Assembly (NCBI GenBank): GCA_028753945.1
Contig: JAPNXP010000013.1
Coordinates: 434,001-498,000 of the forward strand
DNA: 64,000 bases
Reading direction: 5' to 3'
DNA from: Hexactinellida sp. DTS-2022
Taxonomy: Eukaryota; Porifera; Hexactinellida
Position 1 is the stretch's first letter, and each line of letters begins with the position of its first letter. The notes beneath the pieces are model-generated. The model was not told the origin of the DNA. It did not search any database and saw only the letters and a program-made list of their open reading frames with translations. Both the position numbers and the translations under genes were made by a program. Below are positions 1-64,000 of this stretch, one piece after another.

Positions 1-789
1 ATTTTGTATCAGGGTGATGTCTGTACCGATGTTTAGGAATCGAGCTCCGAATATCAACGGACAGGTTAGAGTTATATCTAGAGGTGCTCCCAGGGTGAAT
101 GAGTACTCATAGTCGTTCGGAATACATTCTATACCTTGTGCAATATTATCAGGATCTGATTTTAACAGAAATGATTTGTTTGAGAATACAACGTATTGTA
201 CAAATGGAGCACATCTTATATACTGACAATCAGCATTGGGGTCGAATAGAACTTGATGGATAGTTGTGTTGGTAGTCGCTGTGTCGGTCGGATATAGGAG
301 AACTGGAATAAATCTCCAATAGGTAGGTGATGGCAAAGAAGGAATCAAACATTCAATTTTAAATATCAGGGTAAAATCGAAATAGAATACTCCTCTTTGA
401 TAAACAAATTCGTAAATAATATTAATAACTCCATATATTCTAATACCCATAACAAAAAAGGTATTTTGAACCCTCCTCACAAAATATATACCGAATGAAG
501 CCAGGATTCTAACACCGAAAGTTGGAATGAAACTACAAGCGAAGTTATTTCCCTCATTATGCACACTTACAGCATTATTCGTAAAGAACACACTCTCTCC
601 CGTGGTGCTGTCACGTATATGGTAGAAACCTATGCTGGCAGAAGTGCCTGGAGGTATAACAGTGCCATCGGGCTGATACCAGGTGATGACTTGATCGGGA
701 CTGTCAGGAAAACAGTGGAACTCAGATACTACATCGAATATATCTGCGTGAATCCCACCTCTGAAGATTGAACCTGTACTGAATGGTAC
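1..789 (-). repeat. Module 3 (partial) of the giant Ig/FN3 protein
   Basis: The third copy starts at FSTGSIFRGG and is cut by the window edge after CPLIFGARFLNI. It contains the first Ig-like domain (FHCFPDSPDQVITWYQPDG) and most of the middle region (YQRGVFYFDF). The module order is therefore likely to continue beyond the window. Confidence 0.7.
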
Positions 790-3700
790 AACAGTTACAC
801 CTTTAAAGAAGTACAATCTAATTAGTACTGTGGTAAATGAGGTAGTAGGACCCACTGTATTACCAAATCTGTTTGATGCGTAGATGTATATGATATAAAT
901 AGTATTGGGGAGAAGTACCGTCAGTGTAAATGTGCTGGATCCATCTGGGATTGGTTGATAAATTGTATGGTTAGAAACTGTAATGTAGACCAAAGTATAA
1001 TTTTCCATCAAAAGAGGTGTCCTGTCGGTTCCATTCCATGAAACAAATGCAGTAAAGAATGTTATTGAGCTTACAACAAGTGGGATTACATCAGGGAGGT
1101 AGCTAGGATTAACGATGACATTAATCGCGGAGGAGTTAGTAGGGAGACTAGCACCTACAGTGGCTACACACTCGTATTGGCCAGCATCAGATACAGATGC
1201 AATGGTAATGGCAAGTGTACTCGTTGCTATGTTTCCGGAGACACTCGTTGTGTTTATAGACACTGTGTTAAGTGTCCCATTGTGGTACCATAGAATTGAG
1301 ATAGGAGAAGTCACGTTTGGGAAAGTAGAGAATGCACATGATAACTGAAACGTGTCTGTGACGAATATGTTTCCCTCTGTGAGCAGCTGTGTACTGCTAA
1401 CTGATTGCGGAGCTGGTGGTATGACAGTAATGGAAATGGTATCAGTGGAACTATAGACTACGTTGGAAGATACACAAATGTAGTCCCCTGTATCAGCTTC
1501 CAACAACAGACTGGTGTCTAATAACTCACTATTCGTACCTGCCCAGTACGAGATGGTGTAGGGATGTGGTGAGTTGCTGAATCCACACATCAACACGTCT
1601 GTACTACTCCCAATGGTTATCTCTATATTGGTCGTATCTGGAGTAATCACAGCGATAGGGCTAACAGGCAGTTGTGAGAATAAACTGTATGATAAGATTC
1701 TATTCATGGAATCTCTACAGTAGAAATAACCTTGTCTGTCGGATGGTAATACTGTGCTAACGATCAAGTCACTTCTACCCACACGAGGATTGGAGACATA
1801 GGGTTGTTCAATTATATTATTCGAAACAAGTGTGTACGTGGCTTCCATAGAACGGTTAGGATTGGCATTTGTGTACCACTCCACTGCTAGCAGATTGCTA
1901 TCAGACAGACAGAAGAGAGTAGTCTGATTCGTGATGTAACTAGTACCGTTAATAGTGGGATTAATAGTGGTAGAACTATCGAATACTTGCAATGAAGTGC
2001 TAGCATCGACTCTAGCTCTGAAGGAAGAACTAGCACCGTACCTGTCTTGACAGACATAAGTTCTATCATGCGCTATCATGGCTAATGTCTGTGTAGGATC
2101 AACTAGCAATCTTCTTGGGTTATTTCCACCTGCATTCAATATGTAGTCGTATTGAATGAACTCAGTTGGCGATATATCAAGGAATCTCGCACCATACAAC
2201 AAGGGACAGACCACTGCTATATCAACTCCTCCACCGATTACGAATATATAAGCTGTGCTACCGTCTTCAATACAACTTGAGCCAATAAGAGGTGGACCAG
2301 CTGTATAATTAAGGTCAACATTTGTTTTTACCACGAATGGTCTGTTGGAAATGCTGAAAAAGTCTCCAATAAATATTGAGTATCCTAATTGACAAATGGC
2401 GTTGGCATTATTGAACTGAATACCTGTAAGTACATGTAAAGAGGAATCTGGATTTGCAGGCGAAATTAATTCAGGTTCAAACCCCCAGGTAAAGGAACTC
2501 ATAGCGTTAGTCTGCAAAGATTCTATATCATATAACTGAGTGAAATCAAAGTCAAATACCCCTCTCTGTAACGCGAATGCTCTTACAATTGGAGGATCAT
2601 TCTTACTGAACAATCGTATTCCAACGATACCCCTATTTAAGACAACGTCTAATATGAAATATACCCCAAAGTAATGATCATGTATGAACCCACTAGTGTT
2701 GATACGACACGTAAAGTTCCAACCATCGTTATCAGCTGTCAGACCAGTATTCACAGTCAATGTACTTTCCCCACTTGTACCATCTATTGTGTGGTAGAAT
2801 GAGTTGGCCGTTACGCCTTCTGGTATAATGCCTCCGTTAGGAGCATACCACGTTATTGTATCAGTAACATAATCAGGCACACAGTAGAATTGTCTAATTT
2901 CAAAAGCTACTCCGCTTCCACCTCTGAATATGGATCCACTAGCAAAATAAGTTTTTAAAAAACCTTTGCTCCAATCCAAAAAGTACAAAGCCCTTTCTAG
3001 CATGGTTGTGAAGTCTCGCGAAACCCCATTTGTGGATCCAAAACGGTTTGTAGTGGTAACAAAAACAGAATAATTAGTGGCACTCGTAAGCTGGGTTATA
3101 GTGTAAGAATTCCCAGTTAGCAGAGTTGAGTTTACATAGCTGCTACAATCAGGCAGCTGGCAGTAAGATACGACGTACGTCTCAGGGGTTATTCTAACTC
3201 TGTTAGTAGCATTCCAGCTAATCTGAGCAGACAGATATCCTATCCTATCGAACTCTACTGACACAGCATCAGGCAGATATGCAGGCTCAACTTCAATGCT
3301 GAACAGAGTTGACCTGTTAGCTCCACTGTTCCCTACAGTAGCACTGCAGTAGAACTGTCCAGAGTTAGCAGGGACTGCACTGGACACACTCAACACACTA
3401 ATGTACGACCAGGGATCTCCTGTGGACATTTGTGTTATTTGGAAACCATTAATACCGTCAGTGAGGCGGGTGGAGTTGTGGTACCAAGAAATGTCCGGAG
3501 TTAATTCTAGGTTGGTAGCAATACTGAATGTACAGAATAACTGGAAGGAGTCTTGTTGGAAGAAGAACTCAGGAATACTCGTGTTGTATGCTACTAACAT
3601 GGGAGGAGGAGCTACTATCAGAATACTGATTGTGACATTACTGGCTCCAACTACATTCGTACCGTGACAGGTGTAGTCACCGGAATCGCTTACTTGGAAG

Positions 3701-5295
3701 TTGGTCGTGTCGAGGAGGTTTGTAGAGGAGGCACGTGGTCCTGTCCAGTATAAGAGAGGGGGCGGGTGGGGGCTATTAGTCTCACTGCAATCGATGCTAA
3801 TAGGACTTATGAAGCTGATGTTCTGTGATGATTCAGAGGGTGTGGTAGTAACAGTAGGTGCCACAGGAGTTTGTGAGAATATCCCAACTGTAATCTCCAT
3901 TGAACTACCACTGCATGTGTAGTAACCTTCTCTGTCTAATGCTATCCCGCTGTTAAGAACCAAATCGCTTCTACCGTCACGAGGAGTATCTATATACGAG
4001 GAAATAGACGTGTTTGTAGTTACTGGAACTGGGGTGGTTGAGGCGCTACGATTCGCGTTTGTATCACTTAACCATGTTACTATAGCATTCTCGTTCATAG
4101 TTAAGCAGTAGAGAGTGTTTGGGATAGTTGAAATATAATTCTTAGCAGCAGTTACACCTACTGTCTCTGTATCACTTTCTAATATTTCTAGAGGGCTGTC
4201 TGCTGTGACTATTACTCGGAAAGATAGACTTGTCCCGTACATATCTCTACACACATATTCCCTATCATACCTCAGATCAATTCTAATACCAAGTTCAAAG
4301 TCTACCCACATTCTCCTTCTATTGAATTCATTATCATTTTCTCCTGGCAATCTGTATACAACAATTGAACTTGTGTCGATATTGAGATTCTCTAAGTTTT
4401 CATATATACCGTTGTACACAAGTGGGCAAGTATATCTTAGGAATGGGCTAGTAGCTCCGATTGTTAATACAGTTTGTGACGTTGTACCACTAGCTATGCA
4501 CTCAGAGGTTTCTAGGCTAGGTGCGTTGCTTGTCATATCTGCTCCGAAATTAAGATATGGACCATTAAAGATAGTTGTATATAGAATGTCGTTATCACCT
4601 GTACCAATGGACTGACAAATCGTAGTGATGTTAAATCTCACGTTATCTATTATAGACAGAGCAAGCACTTGAGAAGGTTCCATAGGAGCTGGTCGGAATT
4701 CTATGTTCAATCCTTTCAATGACTGCACCGTGTATAGTGCATTGGGATCCAAATTGAAGAATCCTCTTTGCAGTGTGTACTCAGAAATCACAGGAGGAAT
4801 ATCATTCGTATAAATTCGCATTCCTCTCAGATCATTTTCTACATTACCACCAGAGTTGAAAATTGACCTAACCCAATATATGCCAAACGATTTCTCATCT
4901 GCAGTACTACTCACTCTACAAGTGAAGTTATTCCCCTGATTATTCACATCAATTAGGTTGCTACCTCCACTGGTAGAGGTGTGCAGTGTTTTGTTCCCAT
5001 CAGTTCCTGTCCAATACAGTTCAGTACCACTGCCATCACCCACACTAACCTCATTGCCTCTAGCATCAAACCACAACACAGTCTCAGTGCTGGGATTGTC
5101 TGCAGTGCAAATAAACTCGTCTATGTGCTCTAGAGCTCCTGTGTAAAACAAGGAACCTGATTCGAATACGATGGTTTCCTGTGGAGTATTTGAAATGTCG
5201 TTAAAGAAGGAAAGTTGGACATTAGCGTTTAATGACGATAAAAAGAAGACTAGCATTAGCCACTGGAAAAAGTATCGTACTTTTATCGAATGCAT
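1..5295 (-). CDS. Giant secreted or membrane Ig/FN3 modular protein, N-terminal 1765 residues (partial)
   Basis: The minus-strand frame starting at the ATG at 5293-5295 stays open to the window edge in every stretch I read codon by codon, giving 1765 codons with no intron. It is the first ATG after an in-frame stop (5365-5367). Residues 1-25 form a signal peptide with a hydrophobic stretch (FFQWLMLVFFLSSL). Three modules follow, starting near residues 43, 785 and 1507 at a conserved SGS(I/L)F motif. Each full module has an Ig-like domain (C...W...C), a middle region of about 250 residues with RG(V/F)F and CPL(L/I)(Y/F)GARFL motifs, three further Ig-like domains (DxGxYxC type) and one FN3 domain (SYLPD...ISWN). 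There are many N-glycosylation sequons. I infer an extracellular adhesion or receptor protein; its C-terminus (membrane anchor, kinase or none) lies outside the window. I do not recognise the family. Confidence 0.88.
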   Translation of the reverse strand, partial: MHSIKVRYFFQWLMLVFFLSSLNANVQLSFFNDISNTPQETIVFESGSLFYTGALEHIDEFICTADNPSTETVLWFDARGNEVSVGDGSGTELYWTGTDGNKTLHTSTSGGSNLIDVNNQGNNFTCRVSSTADEKSFGIYWVRSIFNSGGNVENDLRGMRIYTNDIPPVISEYTLQRGFFNLDPNALYTVQSLKGLNIEFRPAPMEPSQVLALSIIDNVRFNITTICQSIGTGDNDILYTTIFNGPYLNFGADMTSNAPSLETSECIASGTTSQTVLTIGATSPFLRYTCPLVYNGIYENLENLNIDTSSIVVYRLPGENDNEFNRRRMWVDFELGIRIDLRYDREYVCRDMYGTSLSFRVIVTADSPLEILESDTETVGVTAAKNYISTIPNTLYCLTMNENAIVTWLSDTNANRSASTTPVPVTTNTSISSYIDTPRDGRSDLVLNSGIALDREGYYTCSGSSMEITVGIFSQTPVAPTVTTTPSESSQNISFISPISIDCSETNSPHPPPLLYWTGPRASSTNLLDTTNFQVSDSGDYTCHGTNVVGASNVTISILIVAPPPMLVAYNTSIPEFFFQQDSFQLFCTFSIATNLELTPDISWYHNSTRLTDGINGFQITQMSTGDPWSYISVLSVSSAVPANSGQFYCSATVGNSGANRSTLFSIEVEPAYLPDAVSVEFDRIGYLSAQISWNATNRVRITPETYVVSYCQLPDCSSYVNSTLLTGNSYTITQLTSATNYSVFVTTTNRFGSTNGVSRDFTTMLERALYFLDWSKGFLKTYFASGSIFRGGSGVAFEIRQFYCVPDYVTDTITWYAPNGGIIPEGVTANSFYHTIDGTSGESTLTVNTGLTADNDGWNFTCRINTSGFIHDHYFGVYFILDVVLNRGIVGIRLFSKNDPPIVRAFALQRGVFDFDFTQLYDIESLQTNAMSSFTWGFEPELISPANPDSSLHVLTGIQFNNANAICQLGYSIFIGDFFSISNRPFVVKTNVDLNYTAGPPLIGSSCIEDGSTAYIFVIGGGVDIAVVCPLLYGARFLDISPTEFIQYDYILNAGGNNPRRLLVDPTQTLAMIAHDRTYVCQDRYGASSSFRARVDASTSLQVFDSSTTINPTINGTSYITNQTTLFCLSDSNLLAVEWYTNANPNRSMEATYTLVSNNIIEQPYVSNPRVGRSDLIVSTVLPSDRQGYFYCRDSMNRILSYSLFSQLPVSPIAVITPDTTNIEITIGSSTDVLMCGFSNSPHPYTISYWAGTNSELLDTSLLLEADTGDYICVSSNVVYSSTDTISITVIPPAPQSVSSTQLLTEGNIFVTDTFQLSCAFSTFPNVTSPISILWYHNGTLNTVSINTTSVSGNIATSTLAITIASVSDAGQYECVATVGASLPTNSSAINVIVNPSYLPDVIPLVVSSITFFTAFVSWNGTDRTPLLMENYTLVYITVSNHTIYQPIPDGSSTFTLTVLLPNTIYIIYIYASNRFGNTVGPTTSFTTVLIRLYFFKGVTVVPFSTGSIFRGGIHADIFDVVSEFHCFPDSPDQVITWYQPDGTVIPPGTSASIGFYHIRDSTTGESVFFTNNAVSVHNEGNNFACSFIPTFGVRILASFGIYFVRRVQNTFFVMGIRIYGVINIIYEFVYQRGVFYFDFTLIFKIECLIPSLPSPTYWRFIPVLLYPTDTATTNTTIHQVLFDPNADCQYIRCAPFVQYVVFSNKSFLLKSDPDNIAQGIECIPNDYEYSFTLGAPLDITLTCPLIFGARFLNIGTDITLIQN
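790..2954 (-). repeat. Module 2 of the giant Ig/FN3 protein
   Basis: This second tandem copy of about 720 residues starts at FASGSIFRGG. It repeats the domain order of module 1: Ig-like, middle region with LQRGVFDFD and CPLLYGARFLDI, three Ig-like domains (the last ending SDAGQYEC), then FN3 starting SYLPDVIPL. It is closer to module 3 than to module 1 in the motifs I could compare. Confidence 0.75.
2955..5170 (-). repeat. Module 1 of the giant Ig/FN3 protein
   Basis: This is the first copy of a protein-level tandem repeat of about 740 residues. It opens with SGSLFYTGALEHIDEFIC, carries the middle region with QRGFF and CPLVYNGIY, and closes with the FN3 domain beginning AYLPDAVSVEF. Module 1 is the most diverged copy: its CPLV motif lacks the GARFL extension shared by modules 2 and 3. 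Boundaries are approximate. Confidence 0.75.
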
Positions 5296-5781
5296 TGCAA
5301 TTTCTTTGTCTGTGATCTCGATACCTACAATGTTAACTTGTTTAATAACCAAATCATTAAAATATCATACAAGCAGTATAATTTTAACCATGGAACAAAT
5401 TTGGGGCCAATAATAAACTATGTTCTCATGATATGTGAATTATTCAGCATAGTTGAGCTTAATTAAAAAGCTATTTTCATTAGAAGAATGTACCCACCCC
5501 GAAACAAAGTGACATACTTAAGTTATTCCAAAGGCTTGCCAATCAACCTAGATTTGTTAATTCCCAAATGGCACAGCTATTGTAAAATTTAAGTTAAAAT
5601 AATATACATCCTTGAAATTCTTGGTGATATAATTTTTGTCAATTTAAAAAGAAACGAATGCATAATATGATGGAATTGGGCTAATTTTATTTTTTACATT
5701 TGTGAAGTATCTGTATCTGAACAATTGGAATATTAATGCAGACAAAATAGTCGTCTGGTAACTTATTACGGCTGTTCAAAC

Positions 5782-8363: not shown

Positions 8364-36704
<28,341 letters not shown>

Positions 36705-45595: not shown

Positions 45596-46531
45596 CTAAG
45601 CTTGATGAATCGGTGTTTCAGTGTTTGCTTCAACGCATTTCTTAATGGCAGGTACTAAGAACTTCATTGGAGCAGATTCCATTATGAAAGGATGGTGCAA
45701 CAATTCTCTTGCCGAAGGCCGTTGACGGGGATTGATCTTTAAACACATTCTGACAAAATCTGCCATTTTCTCAGGCATGTTGTTGGGTATAGGTACTATC
45801 CCATTACTTAGAAAATCCATTATTTCTCTCTGTCCAAATCTGGTGCCGTAGTAGGGTGGGTCTCCGAGGAACATTTCTATCACCATGATTCCGAAACTCC
45901 AAATGTCACACTTTTCATTGTATACCAATCTCTGGTATATTTCAGGAGCCATCCAATAGAGACTTCCAACTCTCCCGCTCCGAATTTGATGAGACTTTGG
46001 CATTACAGTTGCATAGCCAAAATCGATTAACTTCGTGCTACCATTTTTCGTGATCATGATGTTGCCACATTTCAAGTCCCTATGCACTATATCGTTTGCA
46101 TGGAGATCGCTAAGTGATAAAAGAATGTGTTTTGAAATGGCTGCGATTAACCGCCCGTCGAGTGATATTTGTTCAACTAAACTTTGTAAGCACCATCCGT
46201 CAATGTATTCAAGTATAAGATTAGTGGATTGGTCCTCTTTGTAGGTGTCGATCAGCTGTACAATACCCTTATTGCCTTTCATTATTTTCATTGTCTCGAT
46301 TTCTTTCTCCAAGAGCTCTCGACCGTAATCACTTTTCGATTTGACTTGCTTAATCGCGACTATTTCATCTGTGATTGGATTCCTTGCTTTGTATATTTTC
46401 GCACAACCTCCTTCACCGATTTGCGAAATATTACAGAAATTAGATGACTGTTTCTTATTCATCATTCCATTTTTTCGGTGCTTTTTAAGTTTTTGGCTTA
46501 TTAGAGATATCTTTTTCAAGATTGAAAACAT
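45596..46531 (-). CDS. PAK-like STE20-family Ser/Thr protein kinase
   Basis: This intronless frame of 311 residues is almost only a kinase domain. Visible motifs are the Gly-rich loop IGEGGCAKIY (38-47), VAIK (Lys61), the catalytic loop HRDLKCGNIM (150-159), DFG (170-172), the P+1 region VGSLYWMAPE and CDIWSFGIMVIEM. The GSLYWMAPE signature and overall spacing fit the STE20/PAK group. There is no CRIB/p21-binding domain, only a basic 30-residue N-terminus rich in Lys. PAKs normally carry an activating Thr in a RSTMVG segment; here the segment reads RSGRVG, so that Thr is absent. The start is the first ATG of the frame (46529-46531). A signalling role is inferred, with unknown substrate. Confidence 0.88.
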   Translation of the reverse strand: MFSILKKISLISQKLKKHRKNGMMNKKQSSNFCNISQIGEGGCAKIYKARNPITDEIVAIKQVKSKSDYGRELLEKEIETMKIMKGNKGIVQLIDTYKEDQSTNLILEYIDGWCLQSLVEQISLDGRLIAAISKHILLSLSDLHANDIVHRDLKCGNIMITKNGSTKLIDFGYATVMPKSHQIRSGRVGSLYWMAPEIYQRLVYNEKCDIWSFGIMVIEMFLGDPPYYGTRFGQREIMDFLSNGIVPIPNNMPEKMADFVRMCLKINPRQRPSARELLHHPFIMESAPMKFLVPAIKKCVEANTETPIHQA

Positions 46532-49363
46532 TGTGGAATTTGTATGGTTGATATTGACTTAGTTACTTTGTTCACCAAATATATTTCTATTTATACTTAG
46601 TTAGACTGAATAATTTTAAAGCCAATTCACTTTGCTTTTGCACTGAAAACATTAGCAGTATGCACTAATAAATCCATTCAAGTTGATGACATGGCCATAA
46701 TCCATCCTCTAATACATACCTAAACCTATTAATTAGCAACGAGTTTGTTCGTAGCAACCTATTATAGCAGGTATGGCCTAATAACCTATAACATAATCGT
46801 TAATCTTTCATGTGGACCAAGTTAAAAGAAAAATTATTAATAAGTTCACAAACAAACATATAATGAGATTACTTGTAAATCCTATTTGATCTGTTTGCAA
46901 AATTTGCCCACATAAACTTTTGTAGAAGAGGTGTACCTAATTAATAATCGCCTTGTATAACCAGGAATTTCTATGTTTTTACAGAAAAGGGAAGTTATAA
47001 TAGTATACTTATAAACCTAATTGCTTAAGTCAACAAATACACTTATGGTACTTTGTTCTAAGAAATCCTCTGGTATGGACAGTTGTTTATCCTGTCGATT
47101 CCTATAGTTGTCACAATTAGAAGAAAATGTATTTGATGTACAGACCGCCGGTATGTTGATTGAAACACATTGGTTTCTGGAGATTTGAACCTTATAGCCG
47201 GTATCCAAACTAGTGGAGTCTACTGTATTACCACATCCTAAATAACTGATACAGTAAAACTCGTTATAACGAACTCGAATGGAAAATAAATATCTATTAT
47301 CCGAATATACTTATTAACCGAGTTTATACTGCATCGAAATAATTATATAGTGGTTAAGAATCACATACTTGCTAAGCCGATTTACAAACTAATTCAGGTA
47401 CGCTATAACCGCGTTATAAGTTATGTTAGCATTGTAGATAATTGTAATTTATTTCGATTTGTCCTATCAGTACCATCAATAGACATCGCAAATGTAAAAT
47501 CTACAAAAATCTTGCTACATTAATGAGTATTAGTCTATAATTCTGCTGATAACACTATTGCAAACTTAACCAAGTTTCGCTTTTCTCTACTCTGGCTGGT
47601 ACAGCCATTATGCTAGACAACAGATATATAAGTTCAAAGTAGTATATCTCATATATACTTACTAAAAAGGATTATATTAGCAAAGATATGTAATTAGTTG
47701 AGATATCTGTGTGGATTTTAGATAAACTCTGTGTCTCCATTGTATAATACTATTGACGAGGTATAGATTTATTGACCACATATATTTATTTAGAGGGTAT
47801 CCTGTTTGAATAATATTTTAATATAAAATCTTGTGAGGAATATATCTGTATAATGGCCAAAATATCAGATCCAATTTATCTCGGTTAGAACAAAAGGAAC
47901 CTAAAATTAACATACTTATAATTTTATTCATTTGAACAGTTCACTCAAAATTCAAAGTTTTATTCGTCTACTTATTTGAAACATGACTGTCAACATTCTG
48001 TTAAGTATTTGGAACCCTATTATGTGGTTGTTAGCCCATTAATATTATTAATTTTAGCATAACATGTACGTATTTTTATTAAGTATCCTAGTAAATTGAA
48101 ATGAATTAAAAATTTGCAATTTTTCTCATGTCCTTTTTTATTCATATTTGCTTACCCAACTAGTAAGCTTGCTGCATATATTCTGTCTATTTCCTTATAC
48201 AATATGACTCTTGTAGTTCCCTATGCTAATTTGTACAAATATTACATAAAACATTACAATTTGGACCACTATTTGCAGCACCAATAACAAACATATGTTA
48301 ATAAATGTATTCAATTATATCTAAAGAAACATAAATATGTACATAAGTTGTTTACATGCACTCTCAGAGGGTATAAGCAAACTCATAAAAGTTGGTATAA
48401 ACAACTCATGGAAGATTAAGTTTCTTATTGCTATGGCTATCTGGTTAATTAATTGCTAATAAAACTTAGGTGAAACTGGTCAGTATTTCTTAGAACTCTC
48501 AACTCTATCATTGTTTCATAATAACCGTCATTGCAAACTGAGTATATCGAGTCAAAACACCGCAATAAAAGTTTTAAGCATTTTATTACTGAATCGCATA
48601 TATCTACATACTATTCGTAATACATAATTTCGGTATCGCGTAATTTGGTCCTAAGCGATTAAGAGTATATGCAATCCTTGTAAATCTGTTAAGTTTCTTA
48701 ATTAGATTAATTATTACTAAATCATTATCACCTGCATTAACTTTGATATCTGGATAACAACTGATTTATATGATTGTCTGTATTATGTGAAATATAGTGA
48801 GCCAGAATAATTTGAATCAATGTAGTCCAGACAGCCTTAATGTATTATTTAAATTATTTTGTAATCTAAATTTTTTACAAATATATTTGTCTATCTATTG
48901 TTACGTAATAAATACTAGCATCTGAACAAATTAATTAACGCAATAACAAATAATTTCTTGTCAAATTTACATTGAACTGTTTAAGAGGTGTATTGGAAGC
49001 ACACAATTGCAACCAATTACTTATAGAGAAAATGGTTTAGATAAAGCAAAATTATAAACCTTAATTTATTTAATTAAGAAACACAAATTAGATTTTCACA
49101 TTTGCTGTGGAAACCATTATTAATTTGATTAATCAATACTAATATAATAAGTATTAATGTAGTTAGATTGTGCAATCCCTGTTATATATCCATAATTGTC
49201 CAAATCTAGAAAGAGCCAAGCAATCTCTATATTTTAATAATCAACCTATTCAAATTACTGCTACTAATTATGTACCAACAAAGTAGTATAATTAATCAAA
49301 ACGGAAACTGTCAGATAAATAATTGTTTATTTTGATTTACTTCGCCCCTAAATGAATGATTAA
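46532..49363. other. Intergenic region, no gene seen
   Basis: This AT-rich stretch lies upstream of the kinase and downstream of the CW/PWWP gene. A decayed TA-type miniature element begins near 47252 (ACAGTAAAACTCGTTATAAC). TTTATT at 49327-49332 reads AATAAA on the minus strand, just beyond the CW/PWWP stop codon, and is a likely polyadenylation signal. I see no other feature. Confidence 0.55.
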
Positions 49364-50173
49364 TTAATCTGGAGTTGAGACTGAGTGATTAAGTCGAGTT
49401 AACAAAAATTGCATTTCATCGAGCAAACATATTCCGTATTTGTGCAGTTCACTGAAATCCGTGAAAACTTCCTGATTCACTAGTCTTCCACACGGGCTAG
49501 CATTATTAGAACTACAAACGTATTCTGTACTTTTATCAATCTTTTTCTGTTTAATTTTACCTCGATTTAATTTTACAGCCTCTTCTTTTCTACCCTCGCT
49601 TCCTACAACATATACGAACTTCACCAATTTTAATCTATCGCTTACGTCAAATCTCATTGCTTCTTTCGCCTCTTCAAACGCAGCTTTCATTTTTAAAAAG
49701 TTCTTCTGTGATTTTCCAGCTCTTAAAGTCGTTGTATTATTCATTTCTTCAATGTTGTGCGCATCAACCCATAAATGGGTGTGGCGATTTTCAAAGAATT
49801 CGACATGATAGATCGAATTCTTTTTGTTTGTATATTTTCTTTTATCCGGACATAAAGTTATCATGGCAGGCCATTTAGGTGAAGCTTTACTTTTCGCAAG
49901 TACAATTGAGTAAAGGTTGAATTTGTTATTATACCTGTAGTCTTCAATCTCCCAGTTTTCTTCAGGTTTTGAACATTCATTATATTCAAGATCAGTATTC
50001 ATACTACAATACCAATTATCTGTCTGCTTTCCATCCTTCTCGAAATCATTTTTATTTAGTTTTCTCCATTTTTGACATGCTTGATAATCGCACTGTGCCC
50101 AGATGAACTCCAAATTATCCTCAGACGAAGACTCTGAAGATGTATCATGGATTATTATCGCTTTCTTTGCCAT
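49364..50173 (-). CDS. CW zinc finger and PWWP domain protein (ZCWPW type)
   Basis: This intronless frame encodes 269 residues. A CW-type zinc finger lies at about 22-75, with WAQC (Trp25, Cys28), Cys33, KWRKL (Trp36), NWYC (Trp54, Cys56) and Cys67. A PWWP domain follows at about 85-150: VLAKSKASPKWPAMI, then YHVEFFENRHTHLWV. CW fingers read H3K4 methylation and PWWP domains read H3K36 methylation. This pair in this order is the signature of ZCWPW1/ZCWPW2, the vertebrate readers linked to PRDM9-type marks in meiosis. The N-terminus is Ser/Asp/Glu-rich, and the C-terminal 100 residues are basic with no motif I know. The protein is shorter than human ZCWPW proteins. A nuclear reader role is inferred from the domains. 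Confidence 0.87.
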   Translation of the reverse strand: MAKKAIIIHDTSSESSSEDNLEFIWAQCDYQACQKWRKLNKNDFEKDGKQTDNWYCSMNTDLEYNECSKPEENWEIEDYRYNNKFNLYSIVLAKSKASPKWPAMITLCPDKRKYTNKKNSIYHVEFFENRHTHLWVDAHNIEEMNNTTTLRAGKSQKNFLKMKAAFEEAKEAMRFDVSDRLKLVKFVYVVGSEGRKEEAVKLNRGKIKQKKIDKSTEYVCSSNNASPCGRLVNQEVFTDFSELHKYGICLLDEMQFLLTRLNHSVSTPD

Positions 50174-50942
50174 TCTGATTAATCAATTTATTGTAATTAC
50201 TGCCTATTTCAATCTTTTATTTCAATGGACTAAAAATATTCATTTGAATTACCCGCGCTCTAAAACTATTTTCTTTCATCAATTATTATAAAACTATGAA
50301 TTTCCTTTTTTTTAGTTTAACTTGGTATTTACAGAGTACTGTTATTTACAGAGCCTCGTGGGCTGTCTGACTTCTTACATATATTATGTCCAGCTACATA
50401 ATGTTTTACACCATGTCAGTTCATCAATACTATAACAGCAGAATTATATTTTATAAATTACAGCCTAATAGTACATTTTAGCCACAACACTATAGAACTT
50501 TGTTCATGTTGAACAACAGTTCAATCTGTGTTACAAAATATTCAGAATAAATTAGTTACAATTGTAGGCAACAAATATTTATTGATAGCTTTGAAATTCC
50601 TTTGATTATTAAATTATAGCTGAGTTAACATACCAGCAGGTGAAAATTTGTTTATAATAATATTTAGATTTTATTAGTAGAGATATCAACGATAGATTGA
50701 GTCAATTCACGCTATAGAGATAGTTACATATATATGGTGTATTTGATGAAGTTATCAGCTGAAAAACTTACGTTGACAACTTTTAATTCCAAAAATGTAT
50801 GAATTATTACTTAAATTGCAAATCATTTTGTATAAATTTGCTTATTTGGCCCATTTCAGGAACCTATACTATATAGACCTGTTAACTCAAGGAACTATAC
50901 TTATATAGATACATAGTTTATTGTCATTAGTAATGAGTTAAT

Positions 50943-54923: not shown

Positions 54924-55799
54924 ATGTCTGCACTCAGTTCGGATCAGATAGCCTCCTTCAATACGAACGGCTATCTCCTCATAGACAATGTGTTCCCTGT
55001 AGAATCCTGCGATAAGCTAAAGCTACAAGCTATACAACTCTCCAATCAGTTAGACATTAAAACGCATCCCAAATGCAAGTTTGTATGCGGCAGTGAAAAG
55101 GGTAACTCCCAGGAACAAACAGAATACTTTATAAACAGTGGCGCTAATATTAGTTACTTTTTCGAAGAAAACGCATTCACTGATACAGGAGAGTTATCAG
55201 GGCCTATTGAGTTATGCCTGAATAAAATCGGACATGCACTTCATACATTAGACCCAGAATTCAACAAGTTCACTCACTCATCCATTGTCCAAGATATAGC
55301 TAAGTCTCTCAAGCTAAAAGAACCAAGAATACCACAAAGCATGTACATATTCAAACAACCAAAAATAGGAGGAGCATGCAACGTACATATGGATTCTACA
55401 TTCCTGCATACCGAGCCTTCGAACTCGTTGCTAGGCTACTGGATCCCATTAGATGACGCTACGATTGAGAATGGTTGTCTCTCCTTTATACCCGGGTCTC
55501 ATCTTACGCACCCATTAGTGACCTACCGAATGCAGAGATCTGCTCCCAACGCAATGGAGTTGTGCTACACTGGAACGCAATACGAAATCCCTACAGAGGG
55601 GTGGGTACCTCTCGAGGCTAAGCGAGGATCTTTGGTTTTAATTCACTCACGTGTTTTGCATAAGAGTGAAGCGAATACATCCGATAAATCGAGACACGCG
55701 TATTCATTCCATGTGTACGATGCCGTTGATACGGAGTATAGCGAGCTTAACTGGCTACAGCCGACAGATAACACTGCGTTCCCATCTCTCTATACTTAG
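54924..55799 (+). CDS. PHYHD1: Phytanoyl-CoA dioxygenase domain protein, PHYHD1-like
   Basis: This intronless frame encodes 291 residues, the same length as human PHYHD1 as I remember it. It belongs to the Fe(II)/2-oxoglutarate dioxygenases. The metal-binding HxD is in CNVHMDSTFLHTEP and the distal His is in LIHSRVLHKSE. The 2-oxoglutarate-binding Arg is probably in KSRHAYSFHVYD. The family segment LGYWIPLDDATIENGCLSFI PGSH is clear. The N-terminus (FNTNGYLLIDNVFPVESCDK) is the usual PhyH opening. It is probably a cytosolic 2-oxoglutarate-dependent oxygenase; the physiological substrate of this subgroup is not established. The ATG is the first in frame and lies just after a miniature transposon. 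Confidence 0.92.
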   Translation: MSALSSDQIASFNTNGYLLIDNVFPVESCDKLKLQAIQLSNQLDIKTHPKCKFVCGSEKGNSQEQTEYFINSGANISYFFEENAFTDTGELSGPIELCLNKIGHALHTLDPEFNKFTHSSIVQDIAKSLKLKEPRIPQSMYIFKQPKIGGACNVHMDSTFLHTEPSNSLLGYWIPLDDATIENGCLSFIPGSHLTHPLVTYRMQRSAPNAMELCYTGTQYEIPTEGWVPLEAKRGSLVLIHSRVLHKSEANTSDKSRHAYSFHVYDAVDTEYSELNWLQPTDNTAFPSLYT

Positions 55800-56240: not shown

Positions 56241-59200
56241 ATGGACGAGATCGGCTACACTATTCCTCCGGTGTTGAGTGACTTAGCTCGCATTTGGGAC
56301 ACAGAAGTCTCCGCTATCAGACCACACCTGTTGGATGTAGATCTCGCAAACCCTTTCACTTCAAATACCAAACATAGAATCACTCATACTAACTATCCCA
56401 AAGTAGTTACTCGTAATGTTAATTCTGATACAACACACACTTGTATGCCTATTCGTAACTATGAACATTCGACGCTAATCCCAATTGAAATATCCACTCA
56501 AGAACCGACTTTTCACACCTCTCAGACAGATTCCTTCACACAGCTACTAATGGAAGCGGAACATGCTATTCAAACCATGGATTGCTACAATACAACTCCG
56601 TTTGATAGCAGTGACCTTACAATGCACTTTCCTAAGGTGGGTATGGGTCACCAAGAAGACACAATAGAATCCTGCATCAGAGCCAGCTTAGGCGGGCCCC
56701 CGCTCGTAACACTGCGTTCGTATGAGAGACATTGGAAGCGGTCAGGCGTGTATCAATGGAGGAAACCAGCTAGTATCGGTGGTAAAGTTATATTGGAAGA
56801 TAAGCCTAAGTGTCAAAGGAAAAGGAACAAAGTTATTAAGAATATTTCTGTTAGTAAGGGGCGGATAAAGAAGACTTTAATTGTAAGTTTGAATCCATAG
56901 TACAGTAGACCTCGTTAGTATGAACACTGTTATACAAAATTCCGGTTGAAATATGAACACTATTTCAGCCCCTTTTCAATACAAATGATATTGGTTAATA
57001 CGAATTCCGGATAAGGCGTTCGTACTAACGAGGTTCCACAGTATTATACTTTGATGAATTACTCTTCTCATTTATAGACACATTCCTTTCGCCAATCTGG
57101 TATCCTAGAGCTGCCAAATGAGCTCATACACCTAATCCTATCCTACCTTCCTCTCTCTTCTCTGCTTGCTATTTCTGTTGCTTGCAAGCGTATATTCCTA
57201 TTGGCTAATTCTCCCTTTCTATATGCACACCTAAACTTGTCGAGAATGTCCGTAACAGCTGATAATCTGGATTGGATAATTTCAAAGCAACCCAAACACT
57301 TGAATCTTACAAACTCCATTGTAACTCTTTCTGATTCTCAAACGCAGATACTCTTACAGGGGATCGCACCTCAGCTACAAGTACGTACTCTACCTTTTCA
57401 GACGTTACATAAATTCCCGAAATTTGAAACCTATCTCACGCTTTTTTAACCATTTTATAATACAAAAAGGTTCTTATGTCACACATTGGTTAACAATTCC
57501 CCTTTGAAGCAATACACAACGTTTGCAATTCCCTTTAAGATGGAAAAAATAATATTAATATTATTATTTATTTTTCAGAGTTTGTCCCTATACCCTGGTA
57601 CTACATACTCTTTCAAAGGAGACCAGATCTGTCATTTCCTGTCCCAGAATGACACTCAGTATCTGACCTCGCTACAACTCAACTGGGTGGGGGTTACGGA
57701 CTATGGATTGTCCTGTCTCCTTTCTCTCACTGCTCTCACTACACTCTGTTTGGCAGGCTCTAATCACATTACTGATAGAGCTGCTATACCACTCGTCATT
57801 AAATTCCAAACTACGTACGTTATTCACCATGGATTCCTGATTATATGTACAGTGGATGCCGGTTATAAGCACATCGTCGGGAACTGCACTTTATGTGCTT
57901 ATATTCGATATGTTCTTATAACCGGTGTGCTTATATCCGACATCTACTGTATACACTTTACTCCGCTTAATAGAGCCACCGGTTAATATATTTCTCCGCT
58001 TAATAGGTCAAAGCAAACTGGTCCCAAGGTGACTCTATTAAGCGGAGTCAACTGTATAAACAGTAGAACCTCGTTAGTACGAACACGGTTAATACGAACA
58101 CTATTTCAGTCCCCTTCAAAGCCTTTTTAATACAAATGATTTCTGTTAATACGATTTCCGGATAAGGCGAACGCATTTGACGGTCCCCTGGTGTTCCTAC
58201 TAACGAGGTTATACTGTAATATGAATTACCCCATTTATTAATTTATCAATATAGCAATACAATAATGCAACAGCTAGGGTATTTACTACAGTCGAAACCG
58301 GGTAATTCTAACTAATCGGTTTATTCTAACTTATCGGTTTATTCTAACTATTAGTAATGCAATCTTTTGTAAGAAATTTCAACTATACTGTATTTTCATC
58401 GGTTTTTTCTAACTATCGGTTTTTTCTTACTATCCGTTTTTCTTACTATTTTTATCTGAAAAGAAATGGTTAGAAAAAACCGGTTTGAACTGTACCTCGT
58501 TGTGATTACGAACATCCCTTTACACTAGTTTGACGCGCCTAGAGCTCAGTAGCTGCATACAGCTGACTAACAGAACCGGGTATGTGGTGGCCACCTGCAC
58601 TAGTCTCTCCCATCTGGGACTGGCTAACTGCTACAAGATGACAGACAGAGTGTTTAGACTCATCCTAGGTTCCTTAGAGCAGTTGGAATATCTGGATCTA
58701 CATAGCAACCCAGCAGTATGTTAATTGTAGGAAATACAGTAGAACCTAGTTAGTACGAACTCCAGGGGACCGTCAAAATGCATCACTTTATGAGTTCTTA
58801 TTAACCGGAGTAATAGCCATTGAATAGCAATTGTAGGGTCCTGATTTTTCGGAACTGTACGTTCGCCTTATCCGGAATTCCTATTATCCAATTTAATTTG
58901 TATTCAAAATGCTTTGAAGGGTTCGTACTAACAAGGTTGTACTGTACTTATATATCGGTCAACACCTTTTCTAATGTTCTAATTACAGTTACTAGCAAGG
59001 TCATTTTTACATCAAAACTTCACCCTTGTGAAGCCGGGTTTTATATTGAAATGGTAAATCCATTCATATATAGTAGACTCCATAAGTACTACTCCATGGG
59101 TGTCTATATACAGAAGAATTAAGATTCTCGTTAGTACGAACACGGTTAATACGAAATTCTAGTTAACAAGAAACTATTTCAGTCACCTTCAAAACATTTT

Positions 59201-60603: not shown

Positions 60604-62395
60604 CGATAAATTACTGGATTTTAGATCGACCAATATAAAAACCGGCTTCGTAAATGGAATTTATATTTGTCACAAATTACTCTGCTAGTGCCTGAAAATT
60701 ACATTAGAAGAGGTACAATCGAACCTCGTTAATATAAGAGACTGTTAAAATTTGTTTTCCTCATCCGAATTCGTATTAATCCGTGTCATTATAATGGAAA
60801 TCTTTTGAGGGACTAAAAAAATTTTGTTCGTACTGACCGAAGATTCGTATTAACCGTGTTCGTACTGACGAGGTTCTATTGTATATTTTTTATTAATTAA
60901 TAATTGCTTAAATATTCAACGTACTTAGCACATTATTATAACCCCTTTGTAATTACATTGCATGAAAGCTTTCACCTATTACGTGAACTGAGCTAGTCAG
61001 TTGGAAAATTGCACAATTGCATTAGCATTCAGAACTTTGTTCGACATAACATGTGGAGTTCGTTATAGGAAAATCTTGTTTATAACTTTCATGACATCTA
61101 AAACCAAATCATTAAAATGGGTTTTTTTAGGTTAATTATGCAATTCTGACCTAGTTCGAACTGTTCTATTTTCAGTTACAAATTACATTAGTAAAATTAA
61201 AGTAAGCAATTATTTTATATTTGTACCTATTCTATTAGAATAAGCTCATTATTCAATTTTATTTGTAATTCGTAAAATATTGTCAGTTCAAATGATGTAT
61301 TAATTCCTGTCTTATCTCATGGCTTAAAGTTGTTTCCTGTTGTTAAGTATATTGCAAATCCTCATTTTAAGTTAGTTTTTAACCCAAGTCAAAGTTGTGA
61401 TCAGATGTGTGACTTAAAATACCAAATTACTTGAAAACCTTGATTTTTGCTTATATCTACTATTTTATGTAACTTACATACCTAATTTATTGCATATTTT
61501 CACGAGTCTTTATAATTTATAAGAATAATTATACCAAGTATGTTTCAATTTACTTATTTGTCTAACAAGTACTGTAGTAGATCTTCAATTCACATATTTT
61601 GTTATCACATGAGCATGAATCATATTTAAAGTTATTTTTGAATAATTTTATTGACAAATTCTGCAATTGTTATAAATTGCCAATAATAATTATATTAAAA
61701 TTTTAATTTTCAATCCATATTTAGGCTTGAAACTCTCTCTGTATTTGACACGAAAATATATCCAATTCCAAAGTACCTTATCAAATCAAAGGTGAATATA
61801 ATCGGTACTACTCCAATGCCTCTACTCACTCGAAATTTCACACAGTAAAACAGTCAGTTTTGTATTCACTTTAATCGTACAAACTATCCGTATATTCAGT
61901 ATATATTGGTATGTTATTAATATGACTTTCAAACGGTGTAACTTTTAATTAAATTATTAATTTATTAAATGCAAGATCATTCTGTCTATTTTTGTCTTGT
62001 ATTTTAATTAACTTAATTTATATAGTACGTATAATCATTTATTCATTGTATCCCATATTTGTTAACCGAATTTACTGATTATACCAATTTAGTTAATTAT
62101 GTTACAAATTACTGAGCAATCAATTAATTCCAGGTGTAAGCATGTTGTGATAATAATGTAATGAATTGTAGTAATTCTCGTAATATGAAAACCAAGGGAC
62201 CGTCGAAATTTGTTCGTATCGTATTAACCTCAGTCACTTACATGCATTTGTATAGGTTAGGGGGATTAAATTTTGTACTCTTTAACCGATATTTCGCCAT
62301 ATCCGTGTTCGTATTGACGAGAGTCTACTATATTAATTATTCTATTTGCAAATATTAATTATTCTCATTTACATTTATTGGCAGCATAGCTAATA
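60604..62395. other. Intergenic region, no gene seen
   Basis: It contains a short miniature repeat (60628-60715: AATATAAAAACCGGCTTCG, GTGCCTGAAAATTACATTAG). A TACGAAC-family element follows at 60714-60883 (TACAATCGAACCTCGTTAAT to CGAGGTTCTATTGTA), and a worn copy lies at about 62166-62332. The rest is AT-rich with no feature I can support. The TTC16 promoter should lie near its 3' end. Confidence 0.6.
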
Positions 62396-64000
62396 ATGGA
62401 GGATAATCCAACTTTTTTCATTACAGAAGAAAATATTCCTAAAATCCAAACATATCAAGAATTGATTTCTCAAAAACTCAATAATTTATCAGAACAAACA
62501 GATAATCTAATAGAAGATGGAAAATATGAAAATGCGCTTGTTTTGTTGAATAAATTAGTTGTTCTTGATTCACAAAGTTATTCGCACTATTTACGTAGAG
62601 CGAGTTGTTTATTCAATTTATGTGATTTTAAATCTGCCATTATTAACATTGAAAAAGCACTTGCAATGCGGAATTCTCAAGAATTGCTTGAAAAATGCGC
62701 TTTTTATCACTTTCTATACGCACAATCACTCTACGACCAAAAGCTTTACCCCGAAGCAGTTAAAGAATTCGACCATTCAATCCAGATGATTTCTAACAAG
62801 CTTATATTTCACATACGAAAGCTAGCTTGCATTTGGGCAATGGGTGACCATAACAAGTGTTTGGATATAATTAACCAACTTATGGCTGACTATATCGATA
62901 ACGCAGATATCCTAGTATTACGAGCCATACTGTACTATTCCTATGGTAAGCATACAAAGTGTTTTGAGGATGTGCATCATACCCTTGACATAGATAGCTG
63001 CAATACAATTGCGCTCAGTTTGAAGGAAAAACTTTCAAAAGCGGCCGCACACCATAGAGAACAAGCCATTTCTCTCCACATGCAGAATAAGAATAGGGAA
63101 GCGCTTAGAAAAATTAACCTAGCTATAGAAACTGACCCGACATGCGCGGAATTTCACATATTTCGCGGTGTCCTTTATCGGAATTTACGTGAGTATACAT
63201 CTGCGGCAGATGACTTCCTAATCGCTCTCAACAAATGCAACCATGATCAAGATAATCCTATTTACTGGGATAGCAATAAACAATTGATATTAACTTACAA
63301 CGACTTTGCAGTTCATTGTTATAAGAAGAAGTTTTATGAAGAGGCAATTCAGTTGCTAAACAAAGGAATTGAGTCTGAAAAGAATGAGAAAGGTCTCTAT
63401 ATGAATCGCGGCGATTGTTATTTACAGTTGGGACATTGCGATTTCGCGCGTTCTGATTACGAAGAGGCTCTTCAAATTGATGAACACAACTCTCTTGCTA
63501 AATCCAGGCTTGCTTTTGTGTTGTATTCGAAAGGAATTGATTCGTTTTCCCAATCAAAATACGCAATAGCAACTCAACAATTCTCAGAGGCTATTCACTT
63601 CTCTCCCACTGTAACACACTTCTACTTGTGTCGCGCTAAATCCCGTCTAATCGAAGGGGACACTGAGCATAGCAAGGTAGATGCTCTCATATCTCTCCTG
63701 CTGTCTCCTGGCATTGAGTTAGATCCCGCACTAAAGAGTAGGCTATTTCCGGACGCCCGGACACCAGAGCATCTCCTACAGACGCCTGAAGGAAAGCTAG
63801 CCATTGAGTACATGCGGACTATACAGGATACTGATGCTAGCAAGAGTATTAGCCGAGACAATGCTAGTACTGTAATGCAGCTAGATAATCCGAGTGGTGT
63901 TGTAGATAATCCAACGCCTCAATTGGAAGATAATGTAATTGTAGATGATAGTAGAACTATTGAGGATGTAAAGAGGTTTTGTAGCCAGGATATAATCTGT
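62396..64000 (+). CDS. TTC16: Tetratricopeptide repeat protein 16 orthologue, N-terminal 535 residues (partial)
   Basis: The frame is open from the ATG at 62396 to the window edge with no intron. It is a string of TPR helices, for example YENALVLLNKLVVLDSQSYS, FKSAIINIEKAL, YPEAVKEFDHSI, REALRKINLAIETDPT and YTSAADDFLIAL. The segment LTYNDFAVHCYKKKFYEEAI followed by EKGLYMNRGDCYLQLGHCDF is, from memory, strikingly like human TTC16, as is YLCRAKSRL. TTC16 is linked to cilia and sperm, and TPRs act as protein-binding scaffolds. The last 60 residues in view leave the TPR pattern and become polar. The N-terminus is shorter than in the human protein, so an upstream exon is possible. Confidence 0.85.
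   Translation, partial: MEDNPTFFITEENIPKIQTYQELISQKLNNLSEQTDNLIEDGKYENALVLLNKLVVLDSQSYSHYLRRASCLFNLCDFKSAIINIEKALAMRNSQELLEKCAFYHFLYAQSLYDQKLYPEAVKEFDHSIQMISNKLIFHIRKLACIWAMGDHNKCLDIINQLMADYIDNADILVLRAILYYSYGKHTKCFEDVHHTLDIDSCNTIALSLKEKLSKAAAHHREQAISLHMQNKNREALRKINLAIETDPTCAEFHIFRGVLYRNLREYTSAADDFLIALNKCNHDQDNPIYWDSNKQLILTYNDFAVHCYKKKFYEEAIQLLNKGIESEKNEKGLYMNRGDCYLQLGHCDFARSDYEEALQIDEHNSLAKSRLAFVLYSKGIDSFSQSKYAIATQQFSEAIHFSPTVTHFYLCRAKSRLIEGDTEHSKVDALISLLLSPGIELDPALKSRLFPDARTPEHLLQTPEGKLAIEYMRTIQDTDASKSISRDNASTVMQLDNPSGVVDNPTPQLEDNVIVDDSRTIEDVKRFCSQDIIC

Follow-up and report, generated by a model that had tools for sequence, protein, structure and literature searches.

Possible opposed receptor pairs in a hexactinellid sponge: a giant-exon receptor tyrosine phosphatase may be matched by tyrosine-tail receptors with a common ectodomain

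The best-known paired receptors belong to the vertebrate immune system, in which the inhibitory members act through phosphatases that they recruit as separate proteins. Published accounts describe Siglec-11/-16 as a pair in which gene conversion maintains the likeness of the ectodomains (PMC5701461) and CEACAM1/3 (PMC5112662) and CD300A/C (PMC12447643) as pairs with opposing tails. R3 receptors, a class of receptor-type tyrosine phosphatases (RPTPs), have a single phosphatase domain. RPTPs are known in animals including sponges, and one sponge R3 receptor is described as ending in a carboxy terminus with a YxN site predicted to be phosphorylated (PMC5336234). Here we analyze 64,000 nucleotides of Hexactinellida sp. 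DTS-2022 (assembly GCA_028753945.1, contig JAPNXP010000013.1, here C5), a stretch that we call the window (C5:434001-498000). At its left edge lies A1, a giant gene for a predicted RPTP whose ectodomain recurs, on the same contig, in genes that end in a short tail rich in tyrosine sites. Like the vertebrate pairs, these two kinds of gene combine similar ectodomains with different cytoplasmic parts; unlike them, one arm is itself an RPTP and the ectodomains are giant single-exon arrays. The arrangement suggests paired receptors, similar sensors of which one would erase phosphotyrosine and the other carry it. On balance, we lean toward the view that the RPTP form (A) and the tyrosine-tail form (B) are an opposed receptor pair working through matched ectodomains. 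Among the matches listed in our literature search, which took in titles and the starts of abstracts and had most subscription journals outside its scope, none described one ectodomain that exists both with a phosphatase and with a tail of this kind.

The genome searched comprises 112 Mb on 18 contigs. C5 holds both loci: locus A (C5:418471-439364, minus strand), with the receptor phosphatase genes A1 and A2, both of which have phosphatase domains, and locus B (C5:814383-846465, plus strand), 0.4 Mb away, with the tyrosine-tail genes B1, B2 and B3 in tandem units. All exon joins and splice sites in the A and B genes are predictions read from the DNA letters, and copy counts of large families are lower bounds. 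The parts of A1 that lie in the window are as follows (window positions).

1..5295 (-), A1 gene, in-window part, coding for residues 1-1765 of a receptor tyrosine phosphatase with a predicted length of 3047 residues; exon 1 runs on leftward to C5:430527, and exon 2 lies at C5:430004-429630
5225..5295 (-), part coding for the predicted signal peptide (hydrophobic N-terminus by eye), outside the cassette common to locus B; homology to B ends at C5:439224, which is window 5224
1..5224 (-), in-window part of the 6.3-kb ectodomain cassette common to three locus-B genes, about 90% DNA identity; continues to C5:432933
2986..5184 (-), module 1: Ig-like 1, middle region, Ig-like 2, Ig 3, Ig 4, FN3 (sequence and Pfam segments)
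826..2985 (-), module 2, with the domain order of module 1 (sequence and Pfam segments)
1..825 (-), module 3, N-terminal part, the remainder lying left of the window (sequence)
4180..4815 (-), module 1 middle region, without a Pfam match or a credible match in the PDB
1990..2616 (-), module 2 middle region, likewise without a Pfam match or a credible match in the PDB
1..450 (-), N-terminal part of the module 3 middle region (copy alignment)

An earlier note, made from the letters of the window alone, had described A1 as an intronless frame of at least 1765 open codons. The frame is indeed open, from window position 5352 to 1 on the minus strand, a run of 1788 stop-free codons that compares with a maximum of 165 in Markov simulations (40 simulated 64-kb sequences, three frames); translation probably begins at the ATG at 5295, with 1765 codons inside the window. 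Past the left edge the frame continues to C5:430485 (2960 codons stop to stop). Predicted exon 1 comprises 2923 codons from the ATG and ends in CAG, followed by GTAAGG, at C5:430527; predicted exon 2 (C5:430004-429630) adds 124 codons and a stop, for a predicted protein of 3047 residues. The giant exon thus holds, but the gene has one predicted intron, inside its second phosphatase domain. When the five gene copies are compared, the ratio of nonsynonymous to synonymous differences (pN/pS) stays under 1 in 99 of the 105 windows compared, each 40 codons long, which supports a single continuous coding exon in A1, and the giant frame stays open in four of the five.

Extending A1 leftward to its C-terminus, as the earlier note had proposed, reveals a predicted transmembrane helix and then two tyrosine phosphatase domains, D1 and D2; together with the signal peptide, these bear out its suggestion of a surface receptor. 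The C-terminus matches Y_phosphatase (PF00102) at E 1.9e-120 in two stretches, and exon 2 matches it at E 3.2e-24 (profile positions 132-233). After module 3 come a further Ig and FN3, then the transmembrane segment, D1 and D2, with the top hydropathy window (3.54, at residue 2345) marking a single helix after an ectodomain that bears a signal peptide. D1 has the HC-x5-R motif and WPD loop (WPDHG) of classical tyrosine phosphatases and is apparently active. D2, which is interrupted by the predicted intron, reads HCDNGSTRTG and has no WPD loop by eye, so it is probably not a normal enzyme. Among the best 60 of 244 distinct PDB sequences at E<=1e-20, the best chains are the tandem domains of PTPRS, PTPRA and LAR, with PTPRS first (E 1e-126). 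A1 is, by these features of its predicted protein, a type I RPTP.

The type IIa RPTPs (LAR, PTPRD, PTPRS) resemble A1 in being type I proteins with an Ig and FN3 ectodomain, one transmembrane segment, a catalytic D1 and a second domain, D2. A1 differs from them in that its ectodomain repeats a module about 730 residues long, the middle region of which is unassigned, and it does not have the LAR order, which is three N-terminal Ig domains followed by several FN3 domains. A separate LAR-like Ig/FN3 receptor phosphatase with D1 and D2, distinct from A1, lies on contig C6 as 2044 codons in one open frame, and an Ig receptor phosphatase on C4 occupies 1514 codons in one open frame. The genome has 106 matches to PF00102, some of them grouped on C11 and C15, and such matches lie in nine distinct frames that are 1000 codons or longer, A1 and A2 included. 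A giant single exon is not special among the RPTPs of this genome, and few introns may be general among these receptors here. We also observed further single-exon phosphatase frames in groups at C11:60-90 kb and C15:945-955 kb, several of which have an altered second active site by eye.

The counterpart of A1 is found at locus B. A1 and each B gene have one DNA block in common (C5:432933-439224, 6.3 kb, 89.9-90.5% identity by BLAST), whose limits are sharp on both sides, at the end of the signal peptide and just past the last Ig of module 3; outside these ends, BLAST gave no further match between A and B within the genes. One mark of a receptor pair is present, namely ectodomain DNA that is about 90% identical over 6.3 kb joined to unlike 3′ parts. 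Past the cassette, the giant exon of the B genes holds further Ig-like repeats (by eye). It is followed by an exon in which FN3 scores weakly (21.4 bits, cut-off 25), a transmembrane segment (by eye) and a tail about 105 residues long. The tyrosine sites of the B1 tail are YVEM, YYNL, YAES, YAHI, YEVM and YAN; YxxM and YxN are known motif names for such sites. The tail exon occurs at four places in the genome search, all at locus B, and seven tyrosines at six sites are common to all four copies. An eighth tyrosine adjoins the membrane and, in the fourth copy, which follows an FN3 array and is described below, is placed upstream of the predicted acceptor. We considered an immunoreceptor tyrosine-based inhibitory motif in the B tail; the last tyrosine resembles one only if the predicted last intron is retained, and we do not claim it. 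None of the 106 PF00102 matches falls within C5:812-902 kb, and the nearest to locus B, at C5:804285, belongs to a gene for a FERM-domain phosphatase whose single frame spans 955 codons. Each B unit also includes a gene, which we take to be ASCC1-like, that encodes KH and AKAP7-type domains; these were identified by scanning one copy, and the other copies were recognized by DNA.

An abrupt end to homology could also be left by an assembly or copying artefact. However, the five copies stand about 8-10% apart in DNA with nonsynonymous divergence (dN) below synonymous divergence (dS) overall, the flanks and tails each differ in their own way, and the giant frame is preserved as described above, all of which make an artefactual cassette very improbable indeed.

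The ectodomains of the two loci have, as the pattern of variable sites indicates, exchanged sequence. The tests covered stretches present in all five genes and so leave outside the first half of module 1: A2 lacks 1349 bp there, comprising the first Ig, middle region and second Ig (at C5:426209, equivalent to window 3876-5224), and the edge of this deletion coincides with the edge of the A/B cassette. Of the 233 five-way sites that are informative, 49 group A1 with A2, 76 group an A gene with a B gene and 108 group two B genes. Conflict between neighboring sites lies below that of all shuffles (0/1000). The A1-A2 sites and the A-B sites are clustered apart (125 sites; 38 runs vs 60.6 expected; 0/10000 shuffles), which points to exchange of ectodomain sequence between loci A and B. 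Siglec-11/-16, with its gene conversion, offers the vertebrate parallel. Ectodomain dS is 0.18-0.21 between A and B and 0.14-0.18 between B genes.

The ectodomain of A1 is modular. The three tandem modules claimed in the earlier note are borne out by a tblastn alignment of residues 784-2131 (modules 2-3) with the stretch that starts at residue 44 (modules 1-2), in which 1406 columns show 34% identity. The SGS(L/I)F starts that it had placed near 43, 785 and 1507 are all present, the third at 1507 but the first two at 46 and 786. Modules 1 and 2 have about 730 residues each, in the order Ig, middle region, three Ig, FN3; module 3 is without FN3. For modules 1 and 2, ten segments were run one at a time against Pfam. 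The fourth Ig exceeds its cut-off in both modules (28.7 bits against 27 for Ig_2; 37.3 bits against 30 for Ig_3), as does the FN3 (27.6 and 25.1 bits; cut-off 25). The third Ig scores weakly. The first and second Ig-like segments gave no Pfam match above cut-off in these scans, so that their assignment rests on the pattern of Cys and Trp.

The middle region, about 210 residues long, occurs in 14 copies in the five genes (five times three, less the module copy missing in A2), and whole-genome protein searches from module 1 and from module 3 returned the identical 14 places. By this measure, the larger multigene family suggested earlier exists but is small, with at least five genes of two kinds. 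The copies have 31 invariant columns in common, including QRG-F, CQ, CI, CPL, RR, R-YVC-D-YG and SF. None of the 14 matches any Pfam model at E<=10, Ig models included, and a profile of all 14 has a single, chance-level match in the PDB (E 1.6), in agreement with the earlier view that the region fits no family. Since its C-terminal half looks Ig-like by eye, with two Cys and DR-YVC-D-YG where the F strand would lie, we considered whether it is a divergent Ig. Neither the Pfam and PDB searches nor profile-profile comparison with four Ig sets supported this, with less than 1% probability in 12 of 12 pairs, although the latter comparison has little power because Ig-Ig pairs from the same proteins scored only 0.4-44%. 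Lineage specificity was judged on this genome and on prokaryote and viral contigs; profile scans confirmed none of 26 pattern matches in the prokaryote contigs and none of seven in the viral contigs. The middle region may be a new extracellular domain.

How the ectodomain varies bears on whether these genes could form a self/non-self or immune recognition complex, in which variable ectodomains would be polymorphic between individuals and the A and B forms would read partner cells. A described parallel is the Hydractinia Alr allorecognition system, with clustered Ig-like receptors, domains that escape sequence searches and tails with tyrosine motifs; we know of no phosphatase form of Alr. Replacement changes peak in or beside the middle region of every module. 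Between A1 and A2, ectodomain dN is 0.07 and dS 0.14 (corrected values that include a short misaligned stretch at the A2 deletion edge, at the second Ig of module 1), compared with pN 0.007 and pS 0.072 in the phosphatase part (447 codons, uncorrected). These contrasts, the clustering of the genes, the exchange between them and the loss of module sequence in A2 would all suit a recognition complex. However, pN/pS exceeds 1 in only six of 105 windows, replacement is high elsewhere too (in the FN3 of modules 1-2 and the fourth Ig of modules 2-3, and highest at the signal peptide), so that the middle region is not alone, and there are only five genes. We regard a recognition complex of this kind as improbable. 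For the same reasons, replacement peaks outside the middle region as well as in it and pN/pS mostly below 1, positive selection in the middle region is not claimed.

A second, unrelated ectodomain shows the same swap. Next to A1, the window contains an intron-rich gene for a receptor phosphatase with an FN3 array, followed by other genes identified with Pfam.

8730..36333 (-), intron-rich FN3-array receptor phosphatase, approximate limits (Pfam frames, phosphatase exon matches, locus-B copies)
8730..12081 (-), its phosphatase exons, two sets (D1, D2), without locus-B counterpart (Pfam)
13444..13581 (-), its transmembrane exon, the last with a locus-B counterpart (by eye)
45599-46558, protein kinase gene
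49367-50182, gene for a CW zinc finger with PWWP
54924-55796, phytanoyl-CoA dioxygenase gene
57078-57446, F-box gene
62390-64000, TPR protein gene

In the neighbor of A1, eight of eight chosen FN3-like frames exceed the fn3 cut-off and both chosen phosphatase frames match Y_phosphatase. Like R3 receptor phosphatases, it has a long FN3 array; unlike them, it has two phosphatase exon sets, and none was found at its locus-B copy. DNA of its ectodomain is found again at locus B, between C5:852499 and at least 868158, with 92.7% identity over 1043 bases at the membrane end, 93% over 1031 bases for the last ectodomain exons in a second comparison and 84-93% in other long matches up to C5:862000. Matches consisting only of short genome-wide repeats were excluded, and further matches are not one to one because the FN3 exons repeat each other. 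Homology ends at C5:852499, where there is no phosphatase match. After the transmembrane exon of the locus-B copy (phase 2 donor), the coding exon predicted to follow encodes a tail of the B type, with 64% identity to the B1 tail; the two exons join in frame by eye, and the seven tyrosines at six sites are retained. We also note two short interspersed repeats in the window, at 36203-36330 and about 22371-22566, each with at least dozens of genome-wide copies (identity 82-88% and 91-95%, respectively).

Elsewhere in the genome, a cathepsin L-like exon at C1:17465759-17465995 has its catalytic Cys changed to Ser, whereas the other active-site exons found by pattern keep Cys (32 Peptidase_C1 matches, of which a subset was read). 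Silicateins have the catalytic Cys replaced by Ser.

Is joint action needed to explain two such swaps? A1 could be an ordinary lineage-expanded adhesion RPTP, and the B genes adhesion receptors in their own right, products of segmental duplication and replacement of the 3′ end, with no joint action of the two kinds. The many phosphatase exons of this genome, with their 106 PF00102 matches and the groups on C11 and C15, fit such an origin, as does the making of B1-B3 by tandem duplication with the KH/AKAP7-type gene hitch-hiking. What this account does not lead one to expect is that two unrelated ectodomain types were both swapped onto homologous tails. Exchange between A and B is, moreover, the trace expected of selection for matched binding, although closeness on the chromosome alone could also allow it. 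We consider independent adhesion receptors a possible but doubtful explanation.

If instead the A and B forms are an opposed pair, the two kinds would bind one ligand, or each other, through the common ectodomain. Kinases would phosphorylate the B tails, which would recruit SH2 proteins, and the A receptor would strip phosphotyrosine from the B tails or adjacent substrates. The balance of phosphorylation would then be set by cells touching each other or by co-binding on a single cell. Vertebrate paired receptors offer the model, except that here the erasing side would have its phosphatase built in rather than recruited.

Several points weigh against an opposed pair. A common ligand, joint expression and opposed signaling of the two forms are proposals made from sequence, and A and B may sit in different cells. 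In vertebrate pairs, both arms signal through tail motifs; here one arm is an enzyme, and the tail of the other may signal with either sign: YxxM and YxN motifs would favor activation, and the last tyrosine would be ITIM-like only with the predicted last intron retained. Not every gene is intact: A2 is without the first half of module 1, and B2 is off by one base relative to B1 and B3 in a short run near C5:833280, which breaks the frame, so B2 may be a pseudogene, an allele or an assembly error. The site patterns that A and B have in common could partly reflect recurrent changes. A1 has a second, weaker hydrophobic window at about residue 1000-1020, inside the ectodomain. Finally, the FN3 tail gene was read up to C5:862000, and its exon joins are predicted.

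A broader proposal, which we offer tentatively and think rather unlikely in full, is a self-contained eraser/target receptor system: two unrelated giant ectodomains would each exist in a phosphatase (A) and a phosphotyrosine-tail (B) form, matched by exchange, and the orphan middle region would be a new variable recognition domain. If true, this would make the system a candidate for self recognition or for recognition between cells in a sponge-grade animal.

At locus A, the predicted phosphatase is part of the receptor, and two ectodomain types show the identical swap, side by side on one chromosome. If the A and B forms act together, matched-pair phosphotyrosine signaling would extend beyond vertebrate immune cells, and the locus would provide a short list of genes for cell recognition in a possibly early-branching animal.

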